From Bryobacterales bacterium (lineage in GTDB: Bacteria; Acidobacteriota; Terriglobia; Bryobacterales; Bryobacteraceae): a stretch of DNA of 64,000 bases. Shown piece by piece: positions 12,672 through 59,124 of the stretch. Under the pieces are notes generated by a model. It was not told the origin of the DNA. It did not search any database and saw only the letters and a program-made list of their open reading frames with translations. The stretch lies in the NCBI GenBank assembly GCA_947446025.1, contig CANFEY010000001.1, positions 1-64,000 of the forward strand. The letters are read 5' to 3'. The translations under genes and the position numbers were made by a program. Numbering within the stretch: position 1 is the stretch's first letter; each line of letters begins with the position of its first letter.

Positions 12672-12691
12672 AATGGTGTCTGACACCATTT
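12671..12691. repeat. Dispersed palindrome AAATGGTGTC-T-GACACCATTT (copy 1)
   Basis: A perfect 10-bp inverted repeat around a central base overlaps the stop codon of the AAA ATPase gene. A copy identical apart from the central base lies at 58364-58384, also over a stop codon. The GGTGTCnGACACC core is a widespread dispersed element in several bacterial phyla. Confidence 0.8.
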
Positions 12692-45093: not shown

Positions 45094-48093
45094 CTAGAAA
45101 TTGATCCTTAACCCCAATTGTACGATACGCCCGCCCGTGGAACCGACGATCTTGCCCGCGTTGAAGTTGGGGGCCGTCACGGAGCCGATGCGCGTGTCCG
45201 GCTGGTTCCAGTTGGCGTGATTGGTGGCGTTGAGCAGCGTCGCGGTGAATTCCAGCGTGCGGTCCCCTCCCAACGCCATGCGCTTGTTCAGCGTCGCGTC
45301 GTGGTTGATGGATCCGGGTCCGGTCAAGGTCTGGTGGATGCGGTCTCCGTTACCAGCAGTGAAGTTTTCGGGATTCGCGAAAGCGGCCGGGTTGAACCAC
45401 ATATTGGGACCCGGATTTTCCACGTGCGGATCGACGCCAGGGACGTAGTCCACATAGAGGCGGCCGATGCCAATGACGCTGCCCGTGTTGTTAAACGTCG
45501 GCTGCAAACGCAGTGGCTGCCCGGCGGCCCACGTTGAGGTACCGCTGAACGCCCACCCGCCCAGCAGGTGTCGGCCCATGAATCCGGAACTCAGGAATGG
45601 CTTGCCGGGTCCGAACGGGAGTTCGTAAAGGAACGTCACGTTCAAGTTATGCGGATTGGAAAACGGTGCGCGCCCAAAGGCCGACATGCGGTCGTAGACA
45701 TTTTGCACCGGAGTCGAGAAGTTGTCTTTGCGCTCAAAGCTGGTGTAGCCGACGGTCAGCGCCAAACCGCCGGAGGTCCGCTTTTCCACCTGCATATTGA
45801 AGTTGCGGTTGCGGTTGCGGCCCAGCCGGAACGTCTGCCCCGGGTCGAAATCCTGGAACTGTGGATACGGGCGCAGGGAGTTGGAGAAGGACAGCGTATT
45901 GAGTTGGTCGCGGAATTTCAAGTTCTCCAGCGGAATGGCGTTGAGTTGAGCCAGCTGCTGGTTCACCGGCTGATTCTTGCCGTCCTGCAGGTTATAGGTG
46001 GCCGAGAGAATCAGGTTCTTGGCCAGTTGGCGCTGGATGCGGATCTGGAACGTATTGGAGCTGGGCTTGACATCGGAAACGTCCCATATCTGGGCGTTGG
46101 TGCCATTGGCGGCTTCCGGCCGGAGGTCCGGGAAGCGGCTCTGGCGCAGGCCCTCGGCCAAAATCAGCGCCGGAGTTAACTGCGTATTGGGCGAAAGGTA
46201 CAGTTCGCTGCCGTTGAAGGCCTGCGTGCCGAAGTGCCCGTTTTGCGTGTTGGGATTGCCGTAGTCCCGGTTATAGCTGAGCCGAAGGACTGTGTTGTTG
46301 TCGCCCAGAACGCTCCAGGCCAGAGACAAATTTGGCTCCACGTTGGTCCAGTCCGGAATGAAAGATCTGCCGTACTTGCCCTGATTCGCCGTGACCAGTG
46401 CGCCGGGCAGGCCATTGACGGGGTTGGTTTCAGTGAGGGAAATGTTGGATTGGCGGTCGTATTTTTCGGTGCGTTGGGAGTAGCGGGACAAGTTGAGCCC
46501 GTAGGTGACCGTAAGGGAACGGGTGATTTGCCAAGTGTCGCTGAACGAGCCAATGTAGCTGTGCCACCGGTAATAGCTGGGCGAGATCACGATGGTCTGC
46601 TGCACCTGCGACGCCGCGCCCAGCAGGAAGCTGGCGAAGGGATGGCCGGTATTCACGATGCCCGGCAAGCTGGTGTAGCCGGCGCTGAAGTCGAAGCGGC
46701 CCTCGGGCGACTGCGGACGGAAGGTATTGATCTGTTGGTGGTTGGCAGACAGGTCCAGAGAGAAGCGATGGGCCTTCCAGCGCGAGGAGAACGTATTGCC
46801 CAGGTTGAAGCGGTTCTGCGCATCGCGCGAAATCGGGTTGTTCTGCCCCATCGGCGTGTAGCTGCCGTTGTTCTGCTGGTTCTGAAAGTTTTGGAAGTTT
46901 TGGTTGTTGTTGTTGTTGTTGTTGCCGCCGCCGCCGCCGAAAGCGTTGGCCGCGCCGAACTGATAGCGCGGAAATGGCTTGCCGTTCGCGTCGAGCTGAG
47001 CCACGTTCTTGTTGGGCTGGGAGTTGACGTCGATGCGGAACGTATTGACGTTGGTGGGCGACGCGGTGTAAACGTGTTCCAGGCGAATGCCCCGGCTGAG
47101 CACGTTTGAATTGGGGTTTTGCGAATTCGCCAACGTCGGAAAATTCGCTGCGGTGCCGTTCAAGCCGTCGGACTTACTGAGGCGCAGCGTCACTCGGTGC
47201 TTCTTCATGAAGCTGTGATCCACGGAGATGATGAAGCCGTTGGCCGTGTTGATCTCCGGCGTCACCGCGAAGTAGTTGTTCTGAAAGAAGGGTCCGGCGT
47301 TGGTATTCGGCTGCGGCAACTGCAGTAGGACTTCCTGGGCCTTACGGTCCAACCGCGTCACCGGGATCACGTTGTTCAGGAACTGCTGGCGGTTGTATTG
47401 GAGATTGTCGGCGCTAATCGCCACGGCGGCGTTGTACAGCGGGTTCGCGGCGGTGGTCAGCGGATCGTAAATGGGAAGCGGCGCGCCGTTGTTGTCCACC
47501 ACGTGGCTCCAGGAGCCGGTACGCTCCAGCGCGGTGGGAATGGTGTTCAAGCTGAACTGGCCCACGGATTCCTTCACGCCCTCGTAGGTAAAGGTAAAAA
47601 ACGTCTTCCCCGCTCCGTTGTAGAGCTTCGGCAAAACCACCGGGCCGGTGACGCTTAATCCGTACTGGTTGCGGCGCAACTGCCGGGGATCGCCGCCGCG
47701 CTGAACAATTTGGTGTGGATTGGCGTCGAAGGCGTTGTTACGGAGATTCTCGTAGATGCGGCCGTGCCACGCAGGCTTCGCGGCAGGCCGGTTGGTGCCT
47801 GCCCGTCCGGGGCTGGTGGTGGCCGCCGAGGCTCCGGTCAGGTTGGCGGTCTGGATCCGAAATTCCTGCATGGCCGCAGCCAGCGCGGGCGTCGGAGCCT
47901 GTATCGGGGCCTGAACGGGAGCCGGTGCGCCCGCCAGCGGTGTTCCGCCTCGGCCGCCGGGTCCACCACGGCCTTCGGGCCTCTGGGCCAACATGTTCGC
48001 CGGCAACAGGCAAACCAAACAAAAAGATACTGTTAGTAGGGCTTTGATAACGTTACTCCATGCTGACGCGGACTCATCTTTAAGGCGTTTCAC
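45094..48093 (-). CDS. Oar-like outer-membrane barrel without plug, tandem paralogue A
   Basis: About 999 residues. The start is unclear: GTG 48093 or TTG 48102. Signal peptide (LLTVSFCLVCLLPANMLAQ), a Pro/Gly linker, then immediately MQEFRIQT and GRIYENLRNNAFDANPHQ, which follow the plug in full-length relatives. The barrel ends QLGLRINF. Within it a loop of about 30 residues contains GGGGGNNNNNNN and QNFQNFQNQQNN, absent from its paralogue 100 bases upstream. No TonB box or CarboxypepD domain. The VWFA-like gene follows by one base. Confidence 0.8.
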   Translation of the reverse strand: MKRLKDESASAWSNVIKALLTVSFCLVCLLPANMLAQRPEGRGGPGGRGGTPLAGAPAPVQAPIQAPTPALAAAMQEFRIQTANLTGASAATTSPGRAGTNRPAAKPAWHGRIYENLRNNAFDANPHQIVQRGGDPRQLRRNQYGLSVTGPVVLPKLYNGAGKTFFTFTYEGVKESVGQFSLNTIPTALERTGSWSHVVDNNGAPLPIYDPLTTAANPLYNAAVAISADNLQYNRQQFLNNVIPVTRLDRKAQEVLLQLPQPNTNAGPFFQNNYFAVTPEINTANGFIISVDHSFMKKHRVTLRLSKSDGLNGTAANFPTLANSQNPNSNVLSRGIRLEHVYTASPTNVNTFRIDVNSQPNKNVAQLDANGKPFPRYQFGAANAFGGGGGNNNNNNNQNFQNFQNQQNNGSYTPMGQNNPISRDAQNRFNLGNTFSSRWKAHRFSLDLSANHQQINTFRPQSPEGRFDFSAGYTSLPGIVNTGHPFASFLLGAASQVQQTIVISPSYYRWHSYIGSFSDTWQITRSLTVTYGLNLSRYSQRTEKYDRQSNISLTETNPVNGLPGALVTANQGKYGRSFIPDWTNVEPNLSLAWSVLGDNNTVLRLSYNRDYGNPNTQNGHFGTQAFNGSELYLSPNTQLTPALILAEGLRQSRFPDLRPEAANGTNAQIWDVSDVKPSSNTFQIRIQRQLAKNLILSATYNLQDGKNQPVNQQLAQLNAIPLENLKFRDQLNTLSFSNSLRPYPQFQDFDPGQTFRLGRNRNRNFNMQVEKRTSGGLALTVGYTSFERKDNFSTPVQNVYDRMSAFGRAPFSNPHNLNVTFLYELPFGPGKPFLSSGFMGRHLLGGWAFSGTSTWAAGQPLRLQPTFNNTGSVIGIGRLYVDYVPGVDPHVENPGPNMWFNPAAFANPENFTAGNGDRIHQTLTGPGSINHDATLNKRMALGGDRTLEFTATLLNATNHANWNQPDTRIGSVTAPNFNAGKIVGSTGGRIVQLGLRINF
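46904..46939. repeat. Trinucleotide repeat (TTG)7(CCG)5 in barrel paralogue A
   Basis: Seven copies of TTG (46904-46924) followed by five of CCG (46925-46939) on the plus strand, encoding seven Asn and five Gly on minus. Repeats of this kind can change in number by slippage without breaking the frame. Confidence 0.9.
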
Positions 48094-48190
48094 ATCAGCC
48101 AAAGGTTAGTCCAGAGGTCGAGAAAACTACAACTTATATTCTACCCGGTTTTGGACCTGCCGGTGTTGGCCGTTCGGCGGACGAATAGCC

Positions 48191-50992
48191 CTAGAAATTG
48201 ATCCGCAGCCCCATTTGGACGATCCGCCCTCCGGTGGAGCCTATGATCTTGCCTGCATTGAAGTTCGGAGTTGCCACCGTGCCGATGCGGGTGTCCGGCT
48301 GGTTCCAGTTGGCGTGGTTCATAGCGTTGAGCAAGGTGGCCGTGAATTCCACGCTGTGATCGCCGCTGAGGGCGATGCGCTTGTTCAGCGTCATGTCGTT
48401 GTTGAAGCCGCCGGGGCCCAGCAAGGTCGGGTGGACGCGGGGGCTGGTGCCAGGGGTAAAATCCGGAGGATTCACGAACGCGGCTGGGTTAAACCACTGA
48501 TTCGGCGTGGGATTAGCAACGTGCGGGTCCACGCCGGGGACCTCATTGATGTACAGCGCTCCCTGCGGGATCACGCCGCCGGTGTTGTTGAATGTGGGCT
48601 GCAAACGCAGCGGCTGACCGCTGAAGAGGGTAGCGTTTCCGCTGAACGCCCATCCGCCCAGCAGGTGGCGTCCGGTGAAGCCGGAGGCCAAGAACGGCTT
48701 GCCCGCGCCGAAGGGCAACTCATACAAGAACGTGAAATTCGCAAACTGCGGGTTCACGAAACTCGAGCGCGCCCAGCCGGATTTGCGGTCGTAAAGATTC
48801 TGCACCTGTGAGGAGCTATCGTCCCGGCGGGAATTGTGTTGGTAGCGGGCCGTGAAGGCGAAGCCCGCCGAGGTCCGCTTCTCGATTTGGATGCCAAGAT
48901 TGTCAGCCCGGTAGCGGGCCAAGGCGAAGGAAGAGGCGACTTCAAAATCCTGGAACTGCGGATACGGGCGCAGGGAGTTGGCGAAGCTCAGCGTATTCAG
49001 CTGGTCGCGGAAGCGCAGGTTGTCGAGAGGGATTGCGTTCGGGTTGGCGAGGTTGTTGCCCACAAACTGGTTCTTACCGGCGTTCCAGTTGGCGTTGATG
49101 TTCAGGATCAGGTTCTTGGCCACTTGCCGCTGCAGACTGATGCCGAAGTTATTACTGACCGGCATGGTGCCGGACACATCGACGAGTTGGGCTACGGTTC
49201 CGTTGGCGGCTTCCGGGCGCAGGTCGGGAAAACGGCTGGGCCGCAGGCCGGCGGCTAGCACTAAGGCAGGGGATAGCTGCGCGTTCGTCGACAAGTACAG
49301 CTGGTTTCCGTTAAAGGCCTGTGTGGCGAAGTGTCCACTGTTCGTGAAGGCCGAATTGTAGAAGCGATTGAAGTTCAACCGCAGCACCGTATTGTTGTCG
49401 CCCAGAATGCTCCACGCCAGCGACATGTTGGCTTCCACGTTGGTCCAGTCTGGTGCGAATGCGCGGCCGTAGCCGTTGCGATTGGCGGTTACCAACGCCC
49501 CGGGGCGGTTGTTTTCGGGGTTGATTTCCTTGAAGGAGATGTTCGACTGCCGGTCGTACTTCTCGCGGCGCTGCCCGTAGTGGGAGATCCGGGTGCCGTA
49601 GGTCAACGTCAGCGACTTGTTGATCTGCCAGGTGTCAGCCAGATGCAAGTTCTGGCTGTGCCAGCGATAGTAGCTGGGGGAGATGACGATGGTCTGTTGC
49701 GCCTGCGATGTTGCACCCAGCAGAAAACTCGCAAACGGGTGGCCGGTGTTGATGATGCCTGGCAGGCTGGTGTAGCCTGCGGTGAAGTCGAAGCGGCCCT
49801 CCGGCGATTGCGGGCGGAACGTGTTGGTCTGGTGCGACTGCGCGTAGACCTCGACGCTAAAGCGATGCGTCTTCCAGCGGCTGGAGAAACTGTCGTAAAG
49901 GTTGAAATTGTTGGTGGCGTCGCGCGAGATAGGGCTGTTCTGGCCCATGCTCTGGTAGGTCCCGCCGAACTGGTAGCGGGGAAACGGCTTGCCGCGCGCG
50001 TCCAGTTGGGTGAGGTTCACGCTCTGGTTCGTCTCTGCAGAAATCCGAATATTGTTGATGTTGGTGGGCGAGGCGGTGAACACGTGCTCCACGCGGATGC
50101 CCCGGTTGATGGAGTTAATGTTGGGGTTGTTCGAGTTTGCCAAGGTGGGAAAATTCGCAGCGTTGCCGTTCAAGCCGGTGGAATTGCTGAGCCGCACCGT
50201 GACGCGGTGTTTCTGCAAGAAGCTGTGGTCCACGGACACGATGAAGCCGTTGGCGGTGTTGCGTTCCGGGGTGACCGCAAAGTAGTTGTTCTGGAAAAAC
50301 GGTCCGGCGTTGGTGTTGGGCCGCGGCAGGTAGGCCAGCGCGGCCTGCGCCACCGGGTCGAGCCGGGTAACCGGGATCTGGTTCCCGGGGAACTGCTGGC
50401 GCAGGTATTGCAGGTTCGTTTCGCTGATGGAAGACGCTGCATTGTAGGCAGGGTTCGACGCAGTGGTCAGCGGATCGAAAATGCGCAGCGGAGCGCCGTT
50501 CGGATCGACCACATGACCGTATTGGCCGAAGCGTTCCAGCGTGGTGGGGATGGTGTTGAGGCTGAACTGGCCCACCGATTCCCGCACGCCCTCGTAGGTC
50601 AGGGTAAAAAACGTCTTGCCCGCTCCGTTGTAGAGTTTGGGGAGCACCACGGGTCCGGTGACGCTGAAGCCGTACTGGTTCCGCCGTAGTTGGCGTTGCG
50701 GGCCGCCGCGCTGGGCGATCTGGTGCGGGATGGCGTCGAGCGCGTTATTGCGAAAATTTTCGTACACTCGACCGTGCCATGCCAGCTTGGCAGGCGGCCG
50801 CGCTGCGGTGGTTTTCGCGGCTCCGTTCAGGCTTACCGTCCGCGCGCGGAACTCCTCCAGAGCGGTGGTGAGCCCGGGGGACAACTGCTGGGCTGCGCAA
50901 TGGCATACGAGGCCAGCGAAGAATAGGGCGCTAAGTCTAATGGCGTCTCCGTCCAAAATTAGACGCGGGATTGAGGAAAAGAGTTCCTCCAT
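48191..50992 (-). CDS. Oar-like outer-membrane barrel without plug, tandem paralogue B
   Basis: 933 residues from ATG 50992 (MEELFSSIPRLIL). Signal-like hydrophobic stretch (LSALFFAGLVCHCAAQ), short linker, then LEEFRART and GRVYENFRNNALDAIPHQ, followed by the same barrel as paralogue A almost block for block (QYGFSVTGPVVLPKLYNGAGKTFFTLTYEGV; ends QMGLRINF). Like A it lacks the CarboxypepD domain and plug. Probably a tandem duplication. 5' extension to 51040 is open but adds no signal-like sequence. Confidence 0.8.
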   Translation of the reverse strand: MEELFSSIPRLILDGDAIRLSALFFAGLVCHCAAQQLSPGLTTALEEFRARTVSLNGAAKTTAARPPAKLAWHGRVYENFRNNALDAIPHQIAQRGGPQRQLRRNQYGFSVTGPVVLPKLYNGAGKTFFTLTYEGVRESVGQFSLNTIPTTLERFGQYGHVVDPNGAPLRIFDPLTTASNPAYNAASSISETNLQYLRQQFPGNQIPVTRLDPVAQAALAYLPRPNTNAGPFFQNNYFAVTPERNTANGFIVSVDHSFLQKHRVTVRLSNSTGLNGNAANFPTLANSNNPNINSINRGIRVEHVFTASPTNINNIRISAETNQSVNLTQLDARGKPFPRYQFGGTYQSMGQNSPISRDATNNFNLYDSFSSRWKTHRFSVEVYAQSHQTNTFRPQSPEGRFDFTAGYTSLPGIINTGHPFASFLLGATSQAQQTIVISPSYYRWHSQNLHLADTWQINKSLTLTYGTRISHYGQRREKYDRQSNISFKEINPENNRPGALVTANRNGYGRAFAPDWTNVEANMSLAWSILGDNNTVLRLNFNRFYNSAFTNSGHFATQAFNGNQLYLSTNAQLSPALVLAAGLRPSRFPDLRPEAANGTVAQLVDVSGTMPVSNNFGISLQRQVAKNLILNINANWNAGKNQFVGNNLANPNAIPLDNLRFRDQLNTLSFANSLRPYPQFQDFEVASSFALARYRADNLGIQIEKRTSAGFAFTARYQHNSRRDDSSSQVQNLYDRKSGWARSSFVNPQFANFTFLYELPFGAGKPFLASGFTGRHLLGGWAFSGNATLFSGQPLRLQPTFNNTGGVIPQGALYINEVPGVDPHVANPTPNQWFNPAAFVNPPDFTPGTSPRVHPTLLGPGGFNNDMTLNKRIALSGDHSVEFTATLLNAMNHANWNQPDTRIGTVATPNFNAGKIIGSTGGRIVQMGLRINF

Positions 50993-51176
50993 TAGTACTT
51001 CATTCCAACAGGTCGATAAGCAGAATCGATTGGACGCCAAGCCAGTTCAGGCGTAACCTGGGAATGTACACGGGCGCAATCCAGTACTCATTCGCCCGTA
51101 GCATGCAGCCGCTCTAATGGAGCTGCGGCCCACCCCGTCGGCGGTCCACCCAATCGTTGTAATTTCAGGAGGACAC

Positions 51177-53308: not shown

Positions 53309-54597
53309 AGACCCTCGAACGCTATTTTGAATTCGCCCGCCTCGGCACCTCCTGGCGCACGGAAATTCTTGCGGGGACCACTACATTCTTCACGATGGCG
53401 TACATCGTCTTTGTGAACCCGTCGATCCTGCGCGATGCGGGGATGCCGTTTCAGGCGGTGCTGGCGGCCACTTGTCTCGCCGCGGCAGTGGGGAGCATTC
53501 TGATGGGCGCGTTGGCTCGCTACCCCATCGCGCTGGCGCCGGGGATGGGGATCAACGCGTACTTCACTTACACAGTGGTCGTCGGGATGCACGTGCCGTG
53601 GGAAACGGCGCTGGGGGCGGTGTTCCTCTCGGGGCTCGTCTTTCTCACACTGACGCTTACGGGAGCCTCGCAGGTGATCGTCAAGGCGATTCCGCCGGAG
53701 CTGTACGCGGCCGTGGCTTGCGGCATCGGCCTGTTCATTGCCATGATCGGACTGCGCAACGCGGGGATCATCGTGGCTAGCCCGGCTACGTTGGTGCAGC
53801 TGGGCAATCTACGCGATCCGAACACTCTGCTGGCGATCTTCGGACTGCTGGTAACGGCGGGATTGCAGGTGCGCGGAGTGCGGGCGGCGATGATGCTCGG
53901 GATACTGACGACGGTGCTGGCGGGGGCGACGACGGGACTCATTTCGTGGACTCCCGCGAGCTACAGCTTCGCGGACATGGGGGCGACGTTCGGGAAGCTC
54001 GACCCGATCGCCGCATCGCGGTTGGGGCTGCTGGAAGTCGTCTTCGTATTCCTCTTCGTGGATGTGTTCGACAATGTTGGGACGCTGGTTGGCGTGACCA
54101 AGCGGGCGGGGCTTGAAGTGGGTCCCCGCATGAAACGTGTGCTGACCGCGAATTCGCTGGCGACGCTGGTGGGAGCGGCCTCGGGGACCTCCACGGTGGT
54201 GAGCTACATCGAAAGCGCGTCGGGCGTGGTGGCGGGCGGACGCAGCGGTGTGACTGCGATCGTCACGGGGCTGCTGTTCGTGGTGGCGCTATTCGTGGCT
54301 CCGCTGGTGGGCGCGGTGCCGCAAGCGGCGACGGCCCCGGCGTTGATTGTGGTGGGGTCGCTGATGATGGCGCACGTGGGCGAGATCCCGTGGTCGAATG
54401 GCGCGGTGGCGATCCCAGCGTTCTTGACCATCCTGACGATTCCGCTCACCTTTAGCATCGCCACCGGGTTGTCCTTCGGGTTCACGGCGTACGCGCTGCT
54501 CAAATTAGTGCGCGGCGAATTCCGCAAGGACGACTGGCTGGTCTACTTGCTCGCGTGTCTGTTCATCGCGCGCTTCGTGTACTTGGGGGGAGCGTGA
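53305..54597 (+). CDS. AzgA-type purine (hypoxanthine/guanine) permease
   Basis: 430 residues with about 13 membrane helices of the NCS2/AzgA family: EILAGTTTFFTMAYIVFVNPSIL, ALAPGMGINAYFTYTVV, LFVDVFDNVGTLVGV and ASGTSTVVSYIESASGV are all diagnostic. Proton-coupled uptake of hypoxanthine, guanine or adenine. It overlaps the glycosylase gene (ATGA); nucleobase salvage next to base excision may be coincidental. The 3' end overlaps the next gene by 35 bases. Confidence 0.93.
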   Translation: MKTLERYFEFARLGTSWRTEILAGTTTFFTMAYIVFVNPSILRDAGMPFQAVLAATCLAAAVGSILMGALARYPIALAPGMGINAYFTYTVVVGMHVPWETALGAVFLSGLVFLTLTLTGASQVIVKAIPPELYAAVACGIGLFIAMIGLRNAGIIVASPATLVQLGNLRDPNTLLAIFGLLVTAGLQVRGVRAAMMLGILTTVLAGATTGLISWTPASYSFADMGATFGKLDPIAASRLGLLEVVFVFLFVDVFDNVGTLVGVTKRAGLEVGPRMKRVLTANSLATLVGAASGTSTVVSYIESASGVVAGGRSGVTAIVTGLLFVVALFVAPLVGAVPQAATAPALIVVGSLMMAHVGEIPWSNGAVAIPAFLTILTIPLTFSIATGLSFGFTAYALLKLVRGEFRKDDWLVYLLACLFIARFVYLGGA

Positions 54598-56563
54598 CCG
54601 TAACAATGTGCTGTCCCCGTGGGAGCTTCAACAACTTGCCCTCGATGATCCCCTCCACCGCTTCGCCGTCGATCTCAACACGCCCGGGTTCGTGATCAAA
54701 CAACGCCAACGCGCGCGCCGAGCATTGGTAGACGAACTCCATGCCGTTGGAAATCGCGCTGGCGGAACGCAGGTCGGCGTTGAGGTCAGTTAGATGCAAC
54801 ACGGGCACTGTGACCGAAGGTTGGATGGTGTGCGATCCCGGAGGCAACCACAAGGTACGCTCGCCACGTACGGGCCACGGGCGGCCATCCACTTGCGCTG
54901 GACCAGTCCAGGCCACGCCTACGCCGTGCCGCGATTCCACGTCGAGCTTGCCTTCTTCAGCTTCCGCGCGTTCAACAATCGCCGACGACGCCCCCAGCAG
55001 CGCCCAATCCACTTGCGCTATAGAGTTCTCAAAGTACAGCGCCACGCGCGGGAACGCTCCCGACGCCGAGTGGACCAGTTGGAACAACTCGAGGCCGGTC
55101 TGTTGCTTGGTGGGGTACACGTCCTGATAACGCTCGACGATGTTGATGTCGATGGCCAGCTTCTCCTGCCTGGGCGTCGCGTCCGCGTAACGTGCGGCGA
55201 TCAGCGGGTAACGCTGCGGACCTTGGTTCCATGTTGTGGCAGGGTCCTCGATGAGGAACGTAAAGTCGTGCCGCCCGAGCAGCGGCAGCGTCTTGGATGT
55301 GTCCGCGCCGATTTTGTCCCGCATCGAAGTATCCAGCCGGTCGTCGACGTGCGTCAGTGCCAGATCGAGCCACGGCTTGCTTTTGCGGATGCCCTCCACT
55401 TGTTCAATCCACGCCGTCTGCTGGTCACGCGCAAGCTCAGCTCGGTAGTTGAGAAAGTATCCGAGCGAGGCGGGCTTCTTCTTCCAATAGCGCGGCGAAT
55501 CGGAGGAGAACACCTCAACGGGATCGAAGCCTGAGCGAGACTCGAACTCCTCCCGGACATCCGCGTTCATCGGAGTAAAGCGGGCGGGGTTGTCCTGGCC
55601 TTCGAGCGATTCGAAGTACAGCTCAGCTAGATTGACGCCGTCCCAATCAAAGCGCGCGGCCAGCCCGCGCAGTCCGGCGGCGGCGGCGGCGAACGCATCG
55701 GGATTGGTCAGATTCATCAGCTTGCGCCAGTCGAGGTGTGCGTCTTGGCCGATGGCGGTTTTCTCGCGCCACTCCGGATGGTCGTTCCAGAAACGCTCGC
55801 TGACGTGCGGCAGCTCCACCCAGGCGTAGACCTGAATCGCGTTGCGATGGCAGGCCTCGATCAGACGGTCGAGGTAAGCGTCGCGCTCGGCGTCGCGTTC
55901 CCAGTAGTGCCACGCGGCTACGTGCAGCGCAGCGATGCCGGCGGCGCGCCACTTGGGGGCGAGGTAATCGACGTCGGCGCGCGCGCGATACGAGGAGTCG
56001 AAGAACGCCCACAATTTGGCGGAGTGAAACGGCAACGTGAGTCCAAGGTCGGTGAGCGCCTGCGGCAGGTACGGATAGCGGCTGTAGCCTTGCGCGCCCA
56101 GCGGAGTGGCGATCCATAACACCGCGCCGGAGCCTTGCCTGAAGCCGGCGAGCACCGGCGCGTACTCCCACTTTTCGCGCGCAAAGACGGTGGCGGCGGG
56201 AGGCGGCTCGACACGTGGCGCGGTGACAGCCTCCTGCCACACGATGCTGAGTTTGGGTGCCCGCGTATCCACGATGGAGCGGATGGTCACTTGCTTCCCC
56301 GTCGCGTGGAAGCCGAACGATGCAGCCACCGGGGAATCGCCTTCCAGGATGAGGATGGTTCCCCGACCCACGTGCGCACCGAAGTCACCTGAGCCCCCGC
56401 GCGGCACTACGATTACGTCCGCGTCACCCTTCTTGGATTCGGAGAGGCCTAGTGACGAGAGCGCCTCTGGCCATGAACCGCGCTCGGGGCCTTCCATCTG
56501 GAAAGAGAGCGACGCGCCAACGACCAACCGGGCAAAGAGAAAATAGCTAGCGAGTAAACGCAT
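54563..56563 (-). CDS. Secreted GHL10-like (family 10-like glycoside hydrolase) protein
   Basis: 666 residues from ATG 56563. Signal-like N-terminus (LLASYFLFARLVVGASL), an N-terminal region of about 180 residues, then a TIM-barrel-like domain resembling GHL10. This runs from KLWAFFDSSYRARADVDYLAPKW through HYWERDAERDAYLDRLIEACH, QVYAWVELPHVSERF and FDWDGVNLAELYFESLEG (candidate acidic catalytic residues) to the end of a beta-rich C-terminal part. It overlaps the upstream TPR/barrel gene by 17 bases and must be its operon partner. Carbohydrate activity is an inference. Confidence 0.65.
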   Translation of the reverse strand: MRLLASYFLFARLVVGASLSFQMEGPERGSWPEALSSLGLSESKKGDADVIVVPRGGSGDFGAHVGRGTILILEGDSPVAASFGFHATGKQVTIRSIVDTRAPKLSIVWQEAVTAPRVEPPPAATVFAREKWEYAPVLAGFRQGSGAVLWIATPLGAQGYSRYPYLPQALTDLGLTLPFHSAKLWAFFDSSYRARADVDYLAPKWRAAGIAALHVAAWHYWERDAERDAYLDRLIEACHRNAIQVYAWVELPHVSERFWNDHPEWREKTAIGQDAHLDWRKLMNLTNPDAFAAAAAGLRGLAARFDWDGVNLAELYFESLEGQDNPARFTPMNADVREEFESRSGFDPVEVFSSDSPRYWKKKPASLGYFLNYRAELARDQQTAWIEQVEGIRKSKPWLDLALTHVDDRLDTSMRDKIGADTSKTLPLLGRHDFTFLIEDPATTWNQGPQRYPLIAARYADATPRQEKLAIDINIVERYQDVYPTKQQTGLELFQLVHSASGAFPRVALYFENSIAQVDWALLGASSAIVERAEAEEGKLDVESRHGVGVAWTGPAQVDGRPWPVRGERTLWLPPGSHTIQPSVTVPVLHLTDLNADLRSASAISNGMEFVYQCSARALALFDHEPGRVEIDGEAVEGIIEGKLLKLPRGQHIVTVTLPPSTRSAR

Positions 56564-58319
56564 ACCAGACTCCGATTCGAATGTCGTTGTAGTTCGGCCG
56601 GTACGGATTCCCCGCATTCAGCAAATACACTCCGCGCAGAAAATTCACTGAGAACTGCACCGCCGCATAGCCCCACCGCACGCCCGGACCCGTCTCCGCC
56701 GTATTCGCCCAATACTCGCGCTTCAGGTCAGCCGTGCCGTTGACGTTCCAGTACACCTGTAGCCCATCCGAGAGCGTCCATCCCACCCGGTTCTGCGAAT
56801 ACACAATGGTGTCCCGATTGAAGCGGCTCACGAACAGCGCGTCATCGGTAGTCTCCGCGAACAGCCGCCGCCGGTTCACCGCCTTCGCAAAAGACAACCC
56901 GCCGCGCAGGTCTGATTGCGTTGCGCCACCTTGATAACTCACCGCGCGGCCTGCCTCGAACCACACCGTGGCGCCCTTCCACGTAGGCAACGCCATTCCC
57001 GCGGCGATGATGACGCTGCGCTCCGAAAGATACTGCGGACCCGACCCCACCAAGGATCGGATCGGCCCCCGTACGTCGCCGATGAAGCGCAAGCTCAGGT
57101 ACGGTCGAATCCCGGGCAAACGCAACTCCGTCTTGGCCTGCGCATACGCAAACGTATCCCGCCAACGGGTGGAGATCATCGGGAACGCCCACACGGTGGT
57201 CCGCAAACGCCGCACGCCCGGAGCCAGATTGCGAAACGCCTCCGTCGCTTCCTTCGCCGTGAACGTATCGGGACTCTTCCGCGCCAGCTCGAACCAACGC
57301 AGTGCCTCCCGGTCATTCTTGAGCAAGTTGTAAGTCTGCGCCAGCTTCAGGACCACGCCGTAGTCGCTTGGGTCCGACTCATACGCCGACCGCAAGTACC
57401 GGGCCGCGTCCTGCATGTAGCCCTTCTCCAGGCTGCGCTCCGCCATGAAGCGGGCATCCGGACTGGGTGTGGGCCGGTCGAGTAACTCGGGCTGCGGCGT
57501 ATCAGGAGGCGCAGGGGCACGTTCCGGCAGAACCGAGAAGTGCTGCTCCGCCGCCGGACGATTGCCCATCTCCAGATGTAAGTAGGCCAGCTCACGGCGC
57601 AATTCGTCGTTCGTGGGATCAAAGTCCAACGCGCGCTCGAATTCGTAGACGTAAGGGTAGCGATCCGGAAGCAGAACGCGTGCGCTCTCGGCCACGCGCG
57701 GTTCGCCGCCGCGGGATGCAGCCAGCAGCGCGGCCATGGCCCGGTCTGGATCCGCCACCACGCGCGCTAGGTCCAGCAGCAGATCGCGCCGGGCGGGGCG
57801 CAGCCGCCAGGCAAGTTCGTAATGCTCGGCTGCCAGCGCCCGTTCGTCGCGCTGTTCGGCGAGCTTCGCCAATTCTTCGTGCGCGCTGAAATTTCCGGGC
57901 TCTTGGGTCAGGGCCTGTTGCCAGCGGGCGATGCCGTCGCGCAGTGGACGGTCGACATTCTCAAACGCCTCGGCGGCGGTCTGGCTGCCCTGCTTGCCCA
58001 AACGCGCGAAAATGCGCCGCGCCTCCGTGGGCTCCTTCGTTTCATAGCAGAGGAACGCGTACTCCAGGGCCAGGTGCTGATCGTCCGGGTCGAGCCGCAG
58101 GGCCTCGGCGAACTGGTCGCGTGCCGCTACCGCGTCGCCGATTTTGAGCAACGTGTAGCCCAGGTCCTTACGGATATCAGCGCGGTCCGGCGCGGCGGCC
58201 GAGGCGTCGCGGAAACCGGCAACCGCCCGGTCATAGTCTTTGGCTCGCAGGGCTTGGTAGGCGTCGTCGAGCGGGGTTTGCGCAAATCCCACGGCGGCGA
58301 ACAGAAAAATTAGCAGCAC
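56547..58319 (-). CDS. Secreted TPR protein with C-terminal outer-membrane barrel (NfrA/PgaA-like layout)
   Basis: 590 residues. Signal peptide (MLLIFLFAAVGFAQ), then TPRs over about residues 18-370 (AYQALRAKDYDRAVAGF; LALEYAFLCYETKEPTEARRIF; VVLKLAQTYNLLKNDREALRWF). A C-terminal beta-rich region of 220 residues follows (SLRFIGDVRGPIRSLV, RAVSYQGGATQSDLRGGLSF, QNRVGWTLSDGLQVYWNVNG, GVWYAFTR). It resembles the C-terminal domain of NfrA-type exopolysaccharide porins. It is the first gene of a two-gene unit with the GHL10-like protein. Confidence 0.7.
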   Translation of the reverse strand: MLLIFLFAAVGFAQTPLDDAYQALRAKDYDRAVAGFRDASAAAPDRADIRKDLGYTLLKIGDAVAARDQFAEALRLDPDDQHLALEYAFLCYETKEPTEARRIFARLGKQGSQTAAEAFENVDRPLRDGIARWQQALTQEPGNFSAHEELAKLAEQRDERALAAEHYELAWRLRPARRDLLLDLARVVADPDRAMAALLAASRGGEPRVAESARVLLPDRYPYVYEFERALDFDPTNDELRRELAYLHLEMGNRPAAEQHFSVLPERAPAPPDTPQPELLDRPTPSPDARFMAERSLEKGYMQDAARYLRSAYESDPSDYGVVLKLAQTYNLLKNDREALRWFELARKSPDTFTAKEATEAFRNLAPGVRRLRTTVWAFPMISTRWRDTFAYAQAKTELRLPGIRPYLSLRFIGDVRGPIRSLVGSGPQYLSERSVIIAAGMALPTWKGATVWFEAGRAVSYQGGATQSDLRGGLSFAKAVNRRRLFAETTDDALFVSRFNRDTIVYSQNRVGWTLSDGLQVYWNVNGTADLKREYWANTAETGPGVRWGYAAVQFSVNFLRGVYLLNAGNPYRPNYNDIRIGVWYAFTR

Positions 58320-58363: not shown

Positions 58364-58384
58364 AAATGGTGTCAGACACCATTT
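58364..58384. repeat. Dispersed palindrome AAATGGTGTC-A-GACACCATTT (copy 2)
   Basis: Perfect 10-bp inverted repeat; identical to copy 1 (12671-12691) except for the central base. It supplies the last codons and the TGA stop (58372-58374) of the GT2 gene. Confidence 0.8.
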
Positions 58385-59124
58385 TGCGCCACCTTGGCGC
58401 GGACCGGTGCTTGGCGGCGCGCGAAGCTGCTTAGCGGAGCCATGCGGTAGCGCAGCAGCGTGGTCATGGCTTCCACGCCGTCCTGCCAGCGGATTTTCTT
58501 GCCCTCCAGAATGCCGCGCGGGTTGTAACTTACCGGAACCTCATGAATCCTGTACCCTAGCCGCCGGACCTTCGCGGTGACCTCCGGGCAAAACTCAAAA
58601 CGCATGCACTTCAGGTCCATGGCTTCCAATACCTCGCGCCGGAACGCCTTGTACGCCGTCGCCTCGTCCGTGATGCCGGCACGGAACAGCACATTCGCCG
58701 TCAGGGTGAGAATCTTATTGGCGGCCCAGTTGGCCAGCTTCATGCCTTTTACTCCGGCCATGAAGCGCGACCCGTAGACAACATCCGCCTCACCCCGGAC
58801 CAGCGGCTCCAGGATCTTCACGTAGTCGTGCGGATCGTACTCCAAGTCTCCATCCTGCACCAGCATGATGTCGCCCGTGGCCTTGGCCATGCCGATGCGC
58901 AGCGCCGCGCCCTTGCCGAAGTTCACCACCGAATGATGCACCAGCACCGTCTGCGATTCCTTGTACTGATACAGCGTCTCGGTGGTGCCGTCCGTCGAAC
59001 CGTCGTCGACGATGACCACTTCCTTCTCACATCCCGCGGGCAACGGAGCATCCAGCACGCGCTGCAACACCAGCGGCAGCGTGAGGAACTCGTTATATAC
59101 CGGCAGTAGGATGGAAATTTTCAT
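58372..59124 (-). CDS. GT2 family glycosyltransferase (dolichyl-phosphate-mannose synthase-like)
   Basis: 250 residues: LPVYNEFLTLP, the nucleotide-sugar motif VIVDDGSTDGTTE, NFGKGAALRIGM, the metal-binding DxD-like VQDGDLEYDP, and GSRFMAGVKG, with RFEFCPEVTAKVRRLGYRIHEVPV. No membrane helices. Likely transfers a sugar to a polyprenyl phosphate. The C-terminal NGV is encoded by the palindromic repeat. It overlaps the methyltransferase gene by four bases and follows it in transcription. Confidence 0.86.
   Translation of the reverse strand: MKISILLPVYNEFLTLPLVLQRVLDAPLPAGCEKEVVIVDDGSTDGTTETLYQYKESQTVLVHHSVVNFGKGAALRIGMAKATGDIMLVQDGDLEYDPHDYVKILEPLVRGEADVVYGSRFMAGVKGMKLANWAANKILTLTANVLFRAGITDEATAYKAFRREVLEAMDLKCMRFEFCPEVTAKVRRLGYRIHEVPVSYNPRGILEGKKIRWQDGVEAMTTLLRYRMAPLSSFARRQAPVRAKVAQNGV

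Follow-up and report, generated by a model that had tools for sequence, protein, structure and literature searches.

A conserved pair of TPR-barrel and glycosidase genes in Bryobacterales as a candidate exit module of a dispersed Nfr-type exopolysaccharide system

We identified a conserved pair of overlapping genes in a 64,000-nucleotide stretch of DNA from a Bryobacterales bacterium (assembly GCA_947446025.1, contig CANFEY010000001.1, positions 1–64,000 of the forward strand; the window) that probably serves the last stretch, from periplasm to cell surface, of a dispersed exopolysaccharide system of the Nfr type whose synthase is encoded elsewhere, a reading to which we assign a probability of about 0.6. 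Both genes lie on the minus strand. One (56547–58319) encodes an NfrA-like protein of 590 residues with a GTG start, a short signal peptide recognized by eye, a tetratricopeptide repeat (TPR) region and an outer-membrane barrel. The other (54563–56563, with its ATG at 56563) encodes a secreted protein of 666 residues resembling the glycoside hydrolase (GH) domain of PgaB, hereafter the glycosidase. In its favor, two relatives of the barrel protein are linked to NfrB, NfrB is present in 18/18 surveyed genomes that carry the pair, and the glycosidase has a PgaB-like fold. An earlier sequence-only reading had guessed at an NfrA/PgaA-type exit module with a glycosidase, and by the same three lines of evidence that core idea is well supported.

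In the window and in 20 relatives, the glycosidase and barrel genes are neighbors on one strand (21/21 loci), while the next commonest neighbor family occurs in 6 of the 21 and the flanks are otherwise not kept; the conserved unit is therefore the two genes. Among 204 relatives on contigs of named genomes, the 80 best were retained, and in 77 of these loci too the barrel adjoins the glycosidase. The three remaining loci are one cut at a contig start, L199 and L200; L199 is apparently the locus of genome G200 and has no adjoining barrel, though that genome has barrel matches. In a sample of 250 genomes of the order, 163 of them good, the glycosidase is present in 220 (144 of the good genomes) and the barrel, searched with its C-terminal 220 residues, in 215 (142 of the good genomes). 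The sequence-only reading had staked its proposal on conservation of the pair beyond one strain, which these counts bear out. A relative of the glycosidase with 76% identity stands on CALQCC020000004.1 (L179), a record that is titled as a Bordetella parapertussis metagenome-assembled genome and looks mislabelled.

Relatives of the barrel outside the order lie beside NfrB. Among 297 genomes sampled from the phylum, the barrel profile found two matches outside the order (L259 and L260), in proteins with TPR-like N-termini, one of them weak, and an NfrB homologue directly follows the barrel gene in both (2/2). These homologues share 39% (L259, E 1e-104) and 37% (L260, E 1e-109) identity with Escherichia coli NfrB, and that of L260 is fused to a UDP-N-acetylglucosamine (UDP-GlcNAc) 2-epimerase. 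In E. coli the operon order is nfrB, nfrA, ybcH, and YbcH is a DUF4434 protein, of the TIM-barrel glycosidase clan. Two mBio papers (PMC8669469, PMC8669472) report that E. coli NfrB binds cyclic di-GMP (c-di-GMP) via its MshEN domain, that WecB is required for infection by phage N4, and that YbcH is periplasmic and dispensable for infection; export of an N-acetylmannosamine (ManNAc) polymer by NfrA is proposed there. The published survey of NfrB (PMC8669469) names classes of Proteobacteria and rare Gram-positive bacteria as its carriers and describes linkage.

NfrB also occurs in trans in pair-bearing genomes of the order. Among 28 chosen genomes, 18 with the pair and 10 lacking it, we found one NfrB homologue in each of the 18 (E 1e-68 to 1e-99) and in 2 of the 10, and a WecB-type epimerase in 17 of the 18 and 3 of the 10 (of these three, one is a fragment). 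Both associate with the presence of the pair (Fisher's test, 1.4e-5 for NfrB and 7e-4 for WecB, computed on related genomes with no correction for relatedness). The NfrB of the window's own genome is a 596-residue protein on contig 6 with glycosyltransferase family 2 (GT2) and MshEN domains over cut-off (MshEN E 2.6e-8); WecB is on contig 90. The sequence-only reading placed no synthase in the unit; NfrB is not beside the pair but is encoded elsewhere in the genome. MshEN is matched in 14 of the 15 NfrB homologues of the order that were scanned, 13 of them over cut-off, and the motifs HD(A/S)ED, LTEDY and QR(T/S)RW are retained in 15/15. Draft contigs cannot prove NfrB distant from the pair; in G008, G039, G049, G059, G074 and G104, however, NfrB shares a contig with the pair and is more than 1 Mb away from it. 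The genomes G039 and G049 are single contigs, in which the glycosidase, NfrB and WecB are separated by hundreds of kilobases or more. Canonical PgaB was considered as a co-occurring partner and rejected, PF14883 being present in 10 of the 297 phylum genomes and in 0 of the three Bryobacterales of that sample.

Several observations speak against a functional link between NfrB and the pair. Stretches of 16–20 kb around NfrB at 15 loci of the order have variable neighbors and contain no barrel and no glycosidase detectable by profile search, which leaves co-occurrence and the two out-group operons as the basis of the link. The joint absence may be one event, because, of the eight genomes negative for both the pair and NfrB, seven belong to genus g78; these seven sampled genomes lack the glycosidase, barrel, NfrB and WecB together, and genomes with all four occur in three further genera of the family to which g78 belongs. 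NfrB occurs with no detected pair in the same-genus genomes G032 and G075, G057 has neither the pair nor NfrB yet keeps WecB, and G012 has the pair and NfrB and lacks WecB. The NfrB homologue of G031, which is outside the 15, contains four in-frame stops. No MshEN match was found in the NfrB of G039, nor in those of L259 and L260 with Pfam, though the L260 alignment enters that region.

Structure models were built with AlphaFold2 from 21-sequence alignments. The glycosidase model (pLDDT, the predicted local distance difference test, 87.5; pTM, the predicted template modelling score, 0.89) contains, from the N-terminus, an alpha/beta domain reaching about residue 180, a TIM barrel (about residues 181–528; 54980–56023, minus strand) and a beta domain at the C-terminus. 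With VIA-align, the first five ranks are all C-terminal (GH153) domains of PgaB (E. coli 4p7l, Z 24.7, root mean square deviation 3.9, 316 aligned), followed by GH42 (Z 22.9). A profile-profile comparison with hhalign of 41 family sequences and 11 PgaB-type GH domains (E. coli and ten acidobacterial GHL13 loci) gave a probability of 95 and an E value of 3.9e-8, calculated for a single comparison; the sole control, ten GH18 domains, gave 1.5. This alignment pairs VYAW of strand 3 with IYAW of PgaB, and DGVNLAE of strand 4 with DGILFHDD. Against the kinship, PgaB is absent from the top 50 Foldseek matches, which are led by GH66, beta-amylase, GH35 and GH42, and ranks first only after VIA re-alignment; hhalign of the single glycosidase sequence against E. 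coli PgaB fails.

By model and alignment, the TIM barrel carries the invariant residues D189, D308, E314, D407, D440 and D472. These and D347, E492 and D519 are conserved in 41/41 aligned sequences, and E439 in 40 of 41 (42 were aligned, and L130b, a partial second copy, was excluded from the count). E250 is invariant in 21 sequences of the order but is Val in two of three DUF2334 fusions examined. Because several of the invariant acids cap strands of the TIM barrel in the model, an active site is likely present, and we infer catalytic activity. E314 follows the DG motif where strand 4 ends and is aligned, one gap off, to the HDD motif of PgaB in the region of D474. In Bordetella PgaB this residue, the Asp after His 473, is given as the probable catalytic acid (PMC5933820).

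Sequence profiles place the glycosidase less precisely. The only Pfam match is to GHL6 at E 0.0049, under the curated cut-off; neither GHL10 (PF02638) nor GHL13 (PF14883) is matched at E ≤ 1, and Pfam detects no deacetylase domain. The label 'GHL10-like' given by the sequence-only reading is replaced here by the closest fold, PgaB GH153. Searches of PDB sequences with phmmer and with a profile gave nothing significant, and hhalign detected no similarity to E. coli YbcH (probability 0.2). Some distant relatives have sub-cut-off matches to GHL10 (best E 0.00029) and GHL6 over the glycosidase module, and in some of them the part ahead of the TIM barrel has a sub-cut-off match to DUF4350 or, once, to a beta-galactosidase trimerization domain.

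In the partner protein, the combination of TPRs with a C-terminal barrel was anticipated by the sequence-only reading and is recovered, the TPRs by profiles and the barrel by the predicted structure. The TPR superhelix spans about residues 16–369 (57213–58274, minus strand), with Pfam matches to TPR_19 (E 2.9e-26), TPR_17 and TPR_16, and the barrel about residues 372–590 (56550–57206, minus strand), with 12 predicted strands. The model (mean pLDDT 86.4, pTM 0.45) has helices at 16–369 followed by 12 long strands at 372–589; the orientation of the TPR part to the barrel is unreliable because of the pTM of 0.45. Foldseek matches the protein to BcsC (9b8a, E 2.7e-7).

The profiles of known exporters, some of which the sequence-only reading had proposed as a check, did not recognize the protein. 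NfrA_C (PF13283) is not matched at E ≤ 1, while E. coli NfrA itself scores 9.7e-68 on that model; the equivalog models of PgaA (15.7 of 366.65 bits) and BcsC (15.6 of 858 bits) are not reached and align over the TPR part only, and no NfrA_C, PgaA or BcsC model of Pfam or NCBIfam is matched over the barrel region. When NfrA and PgaA of E. coli were each compared with it as single sequences by hhalign, the outcome was negative except for a weak TPR stretch in PgaA, and a sequence search for a solved NfrA structure gave nothing beyond TPR matches. The missing NfrA_C match and the negative comparison with NfrA count against an Nfr-type exporter, as does the size of the barrel. PgaA and BcsC have barrels of 16 strands, compared with the 12 predicted here, and the best structural matches of the predicted barrel include oligosaccharide porins. 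The chief structural reservation is how small the barrel is: this size would suit a single thin chain, or chains that have been trimmed, yet the barrel resembles uptake porins too.

Glycan uptake, in which the secreted glycosidase would cut an outside polysaccharide and a KdgM/VhGalP-like 12-strand barrel would import the oligosaccharides, is the alternative suggested by barrel size, and the best solved matches are the oligogalacturonate porins VhGalP (8xua, Z 13.8) and KdgM (4pr7, Z 13.1). These scores are tied with those of an autotransporter (3qq2, Z 13.7) and PcoB (7pge, Z 13.4), so the porin match may reflect strand number. Moreover, a periplasmic TPR superhelix fused to a barrel is an exporter layout, as the BcsC match illustrates, gene content beside the pair is not kept across the 21 loci, and the out-group barrels adjoin a synthase. 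We therefore consider uptake unlikely.

Relatives of the glycosidase also exist outside the pair. It is matched in 78 of 299 genomes sampled from the class, 13 of them outside the order, and in 11 of the 297 phylum genomes, of which three are Bryobacterales and one gives a very weak match. Those outside the order are mainly of two forms. A long form of about 1290–1660 residues was found in 16 loci, both within the class and beyond it, some of them truncated where a contig ends (L119–L124, L126, L134, L137, L261–L267), and one of these, L122, is a second copy inside the order. The deacetylase-like domain DUF2334 is fused to the glycosidase in 12/12 long forms scanned (E 1e-42 to 7e-51), and three that were read by eye have a hydrophobic segment at the end. 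A membrane GT2 of one family is near the long form in 12 of the 16 loci, the other four stretches stopping at most 0.9 kb downstream of the gene, and a WecB-type epimerase is present in 10 of the 16. Seven long-form loci encode a small secreted protein, two of whose families appear barrel-like by eye, and L119 and L122 also hold a beta-propeller protein. A deacetylase-like domain joined to a glycosidase beside a GT2 synthase is the layout of PgaB with PgaC. A literature search found no paper on DUF2334 and exopolysaccharide.

The second form, of about 710 residues, stands alone in five loci lacking the TPR-barrel partner. L131 and L130 are exceptions to the two forms. At L131, whose genome is 80% complete with 6% contamination, a close orthologue directly follows a WecB-type epimerase. 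Tandem glycosidase copies lie near a DUF4861/GH88 protein at L130:8820-12103, a locus with no TPR-barrel match, and at L132:8131-11036 a second copy in genome G058 is beside a TPR-only protein of 295 residues that has no barrel match.

The long form bears on the identity of the synthase. In the two loci tested its GT2 is nearer PgaC (E 1e-26 and 6e-29) than NfrB, which weighs against an NfrB partner for the pair and would suit an arrangement in which the pair serves a different synthase and NfrB is an independent core gene. Candidates exist in the window's own genome, which holds a GH18-CE4-GT2-like protein of 1111 residues on contig 108 and a membrane GT2 on contig 56. However, the 1111-residue protein is present in 35 of 250 order genomes, compared with 220 of 250 for the glycosidase, a count that covers this protein only, and it was rejected as an obligate synthase. 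DUF2334 is absent from the window's own genome, where no partner in trans was found, and the out-group relatives of the barrel adjoin NfrB. Service to another synthase thus appears about as improbable as uptake. On contig 108 (L142:2514-5849), the domains of the 1111-residue protein were assigned by eye, and a barrel-like open reading frame (ORF) follows it.

Least probable is a function in the envelope itself, in which the substrate of the two proteins would be peptidoglycan, lipoprotein glycan or a polymer bound to the cell instead of an exported one, with a Slam- or assembly-like TPR-barrel. Although a housekeeping function would agree with the near-universal presence of the pair in the order and TPR_Slam is weakly matched (E 0.0024, below cut-off), relatives of both proteins are found in exopolysaccharide-type operons and the pair is missing from the seven sampled g78 genomes.

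Under the preferred reading of the pair as the exit end of an Nfr-type system, an inner-membrane NfrB homologue (GT2 and MshEN), encoded elsewhere, would polymerize a UDP-linked N-acetylhexosamine (HexNAc) sugar, probably UDP-ManNAc supplied by WecB, and would probably be switched on by c-di-GMP. The TPR superhelix would scaffold or guide the chain in the periplasm, and the 12-strand barrel would release it to the outside. The glycosidase, probably encoded on the same mRNA and co-translated, would be held near the exit, where it would cut or clear the chain.

The overlap of the two genes is consistent with such co-translation. It comprises 17 bases (56547–56563, minus strand), as seen from the sequence, from conserved columns and from overlaps in relatives, and our ORF check of the window agrees with the ORFs, coordinates and overlap first described from the sequence. 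The ATG of the glycosidase covers the codons of the invariant Tyr586 and the nearly invariant Ala587 in the last barrel strand. The longest ORF begins at 56617 and would give 684 residues, with the stop at 54563 either way. By mechanical ORF calls, the overlap is exactly 17 bases in 9 of 20 relatives; in the remaining 11 it is larger, since the start was set mechanically at the longest ORF.

A more specific picture is offered tentatively, at odds clearly below even: a near-universal exopolysaccharide system of Bryobacterales, dispersed and probably controlled by c-di-GMP, would use a 12-strand TPR-barrel port coupled to an endoglycosidase to export a ManNAc-type polymer. With similar reserve, we suggest that port and endoglycosidase are translationally coupled, and that the latter represents an uncharacterized family, kin to the PgaB GH domain, that also occurs in DUF2334 fusions elsewhere in Acidobacteriota. 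If this is correct, the Nfr and Pga logics would be joined in one system. Bryobacterales are common soil bacteria and poorly cultured. If the preferred reading is right, most of them would carry an Nfr-type glycan system that is invisible to operon-based surveys, because the synthase, the precursor enzyme and the export pair are scattered. In addition, the little-understood third Nfr component would gain a testable role in chain trimming at the exit, and the glycosidase family outlined here by its invariant acids may cut HexNAc-type biofilm polymers. Our literature search found no paper that joins NfrB with Acidobacteria, although the Candidatus Solibacter genome paper (PMC3174227) may treat such genes, three that mention both YbcH and NfrA, and, among the matches listed, none whose title describes a split Nfr system.

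Other genes near the pair do not appear to belong to the system. The nearest GT2 gene (58372–59124), which the sequence-only reading had set apart as lying across a repeat, is real, and a 13-base palindrome at 58368–58380 stands between it and the TPR gene. This GT2, a methyltransferase and a gene of 283 codons were considered as members and rejected, as homologues occur in 0 of the 20 relatives' loci. The palindrome, GGTGTCTGACACC, is imperfect at its center only and is found at 12675–12687 as well as at 58368–58380, the site that separates the GT2 and TPR genes; with one mismatch allowed there are 4 strand matches, compared with 0.11 expected. Elsewhere in the window, 45094–48102 and 48191–51040 encode tandem paralogues of 1002 and 949 residues that look like outer-membrane receptors by eye and share nearly identical stretches.

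The window pair is similar to the E. coli NfrB-NfrA-YbcH system (PMC8669469, PMC8669472) in that an outer-membrane protein with TPRs and a barrel is accompanied by a further periplasmic protein, which in E. coli is YbcH. The genome also holds NfrB, with GT2 and MshEN, and WecB. Unlike in E. coli, NfrB and WecB are not beside the pair, which alone forms the unit, and the window proteins differ from NfrA and YbcH in lacking an NfrA_C match and detectable YbcH similarity, respectively.

The resemblance to PgaA-PgaB lies in the joining of a TPR-barrel protein with a glycosidase whose TIM barrel resembles PgaB GH153 in fold, although the predicted barrel has fewer strands than that of PgaA. Like PgaB, distant relatives of the glycosidase include a deacetylase-like domain, theirs being of another kind (DUF2334); the window protein, in contrast to PgaB, has no deacetylase domain and no GHL13 match. 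The TPR region of PgaA binds the deacetylase domain of PgaB, and the complex raises both PgaB activities, including that of the hydrolase, according to PMC9384988.

With BcsC, PelB and other TPR exopolysaccharide porins the window protein shares its domain layout, to which the Foldseek match to BcsC corresponds, yet its matches to the BcsC and PgaA models are TPR-based and far below cut-off. The barrels of such porins are larger than the 12-strand one predicted here. In size and fold this barrel resembles the KdgM-family porins VhGalP and KdgM, which have no TPR domain and serve in uptake instead of export. Although it stands outside the NfrA_C, PgaA, BcsC, GHL13 and GHL10 families as modelled, the pair would work like NfrA combined with a PgaB-type hydrolase.

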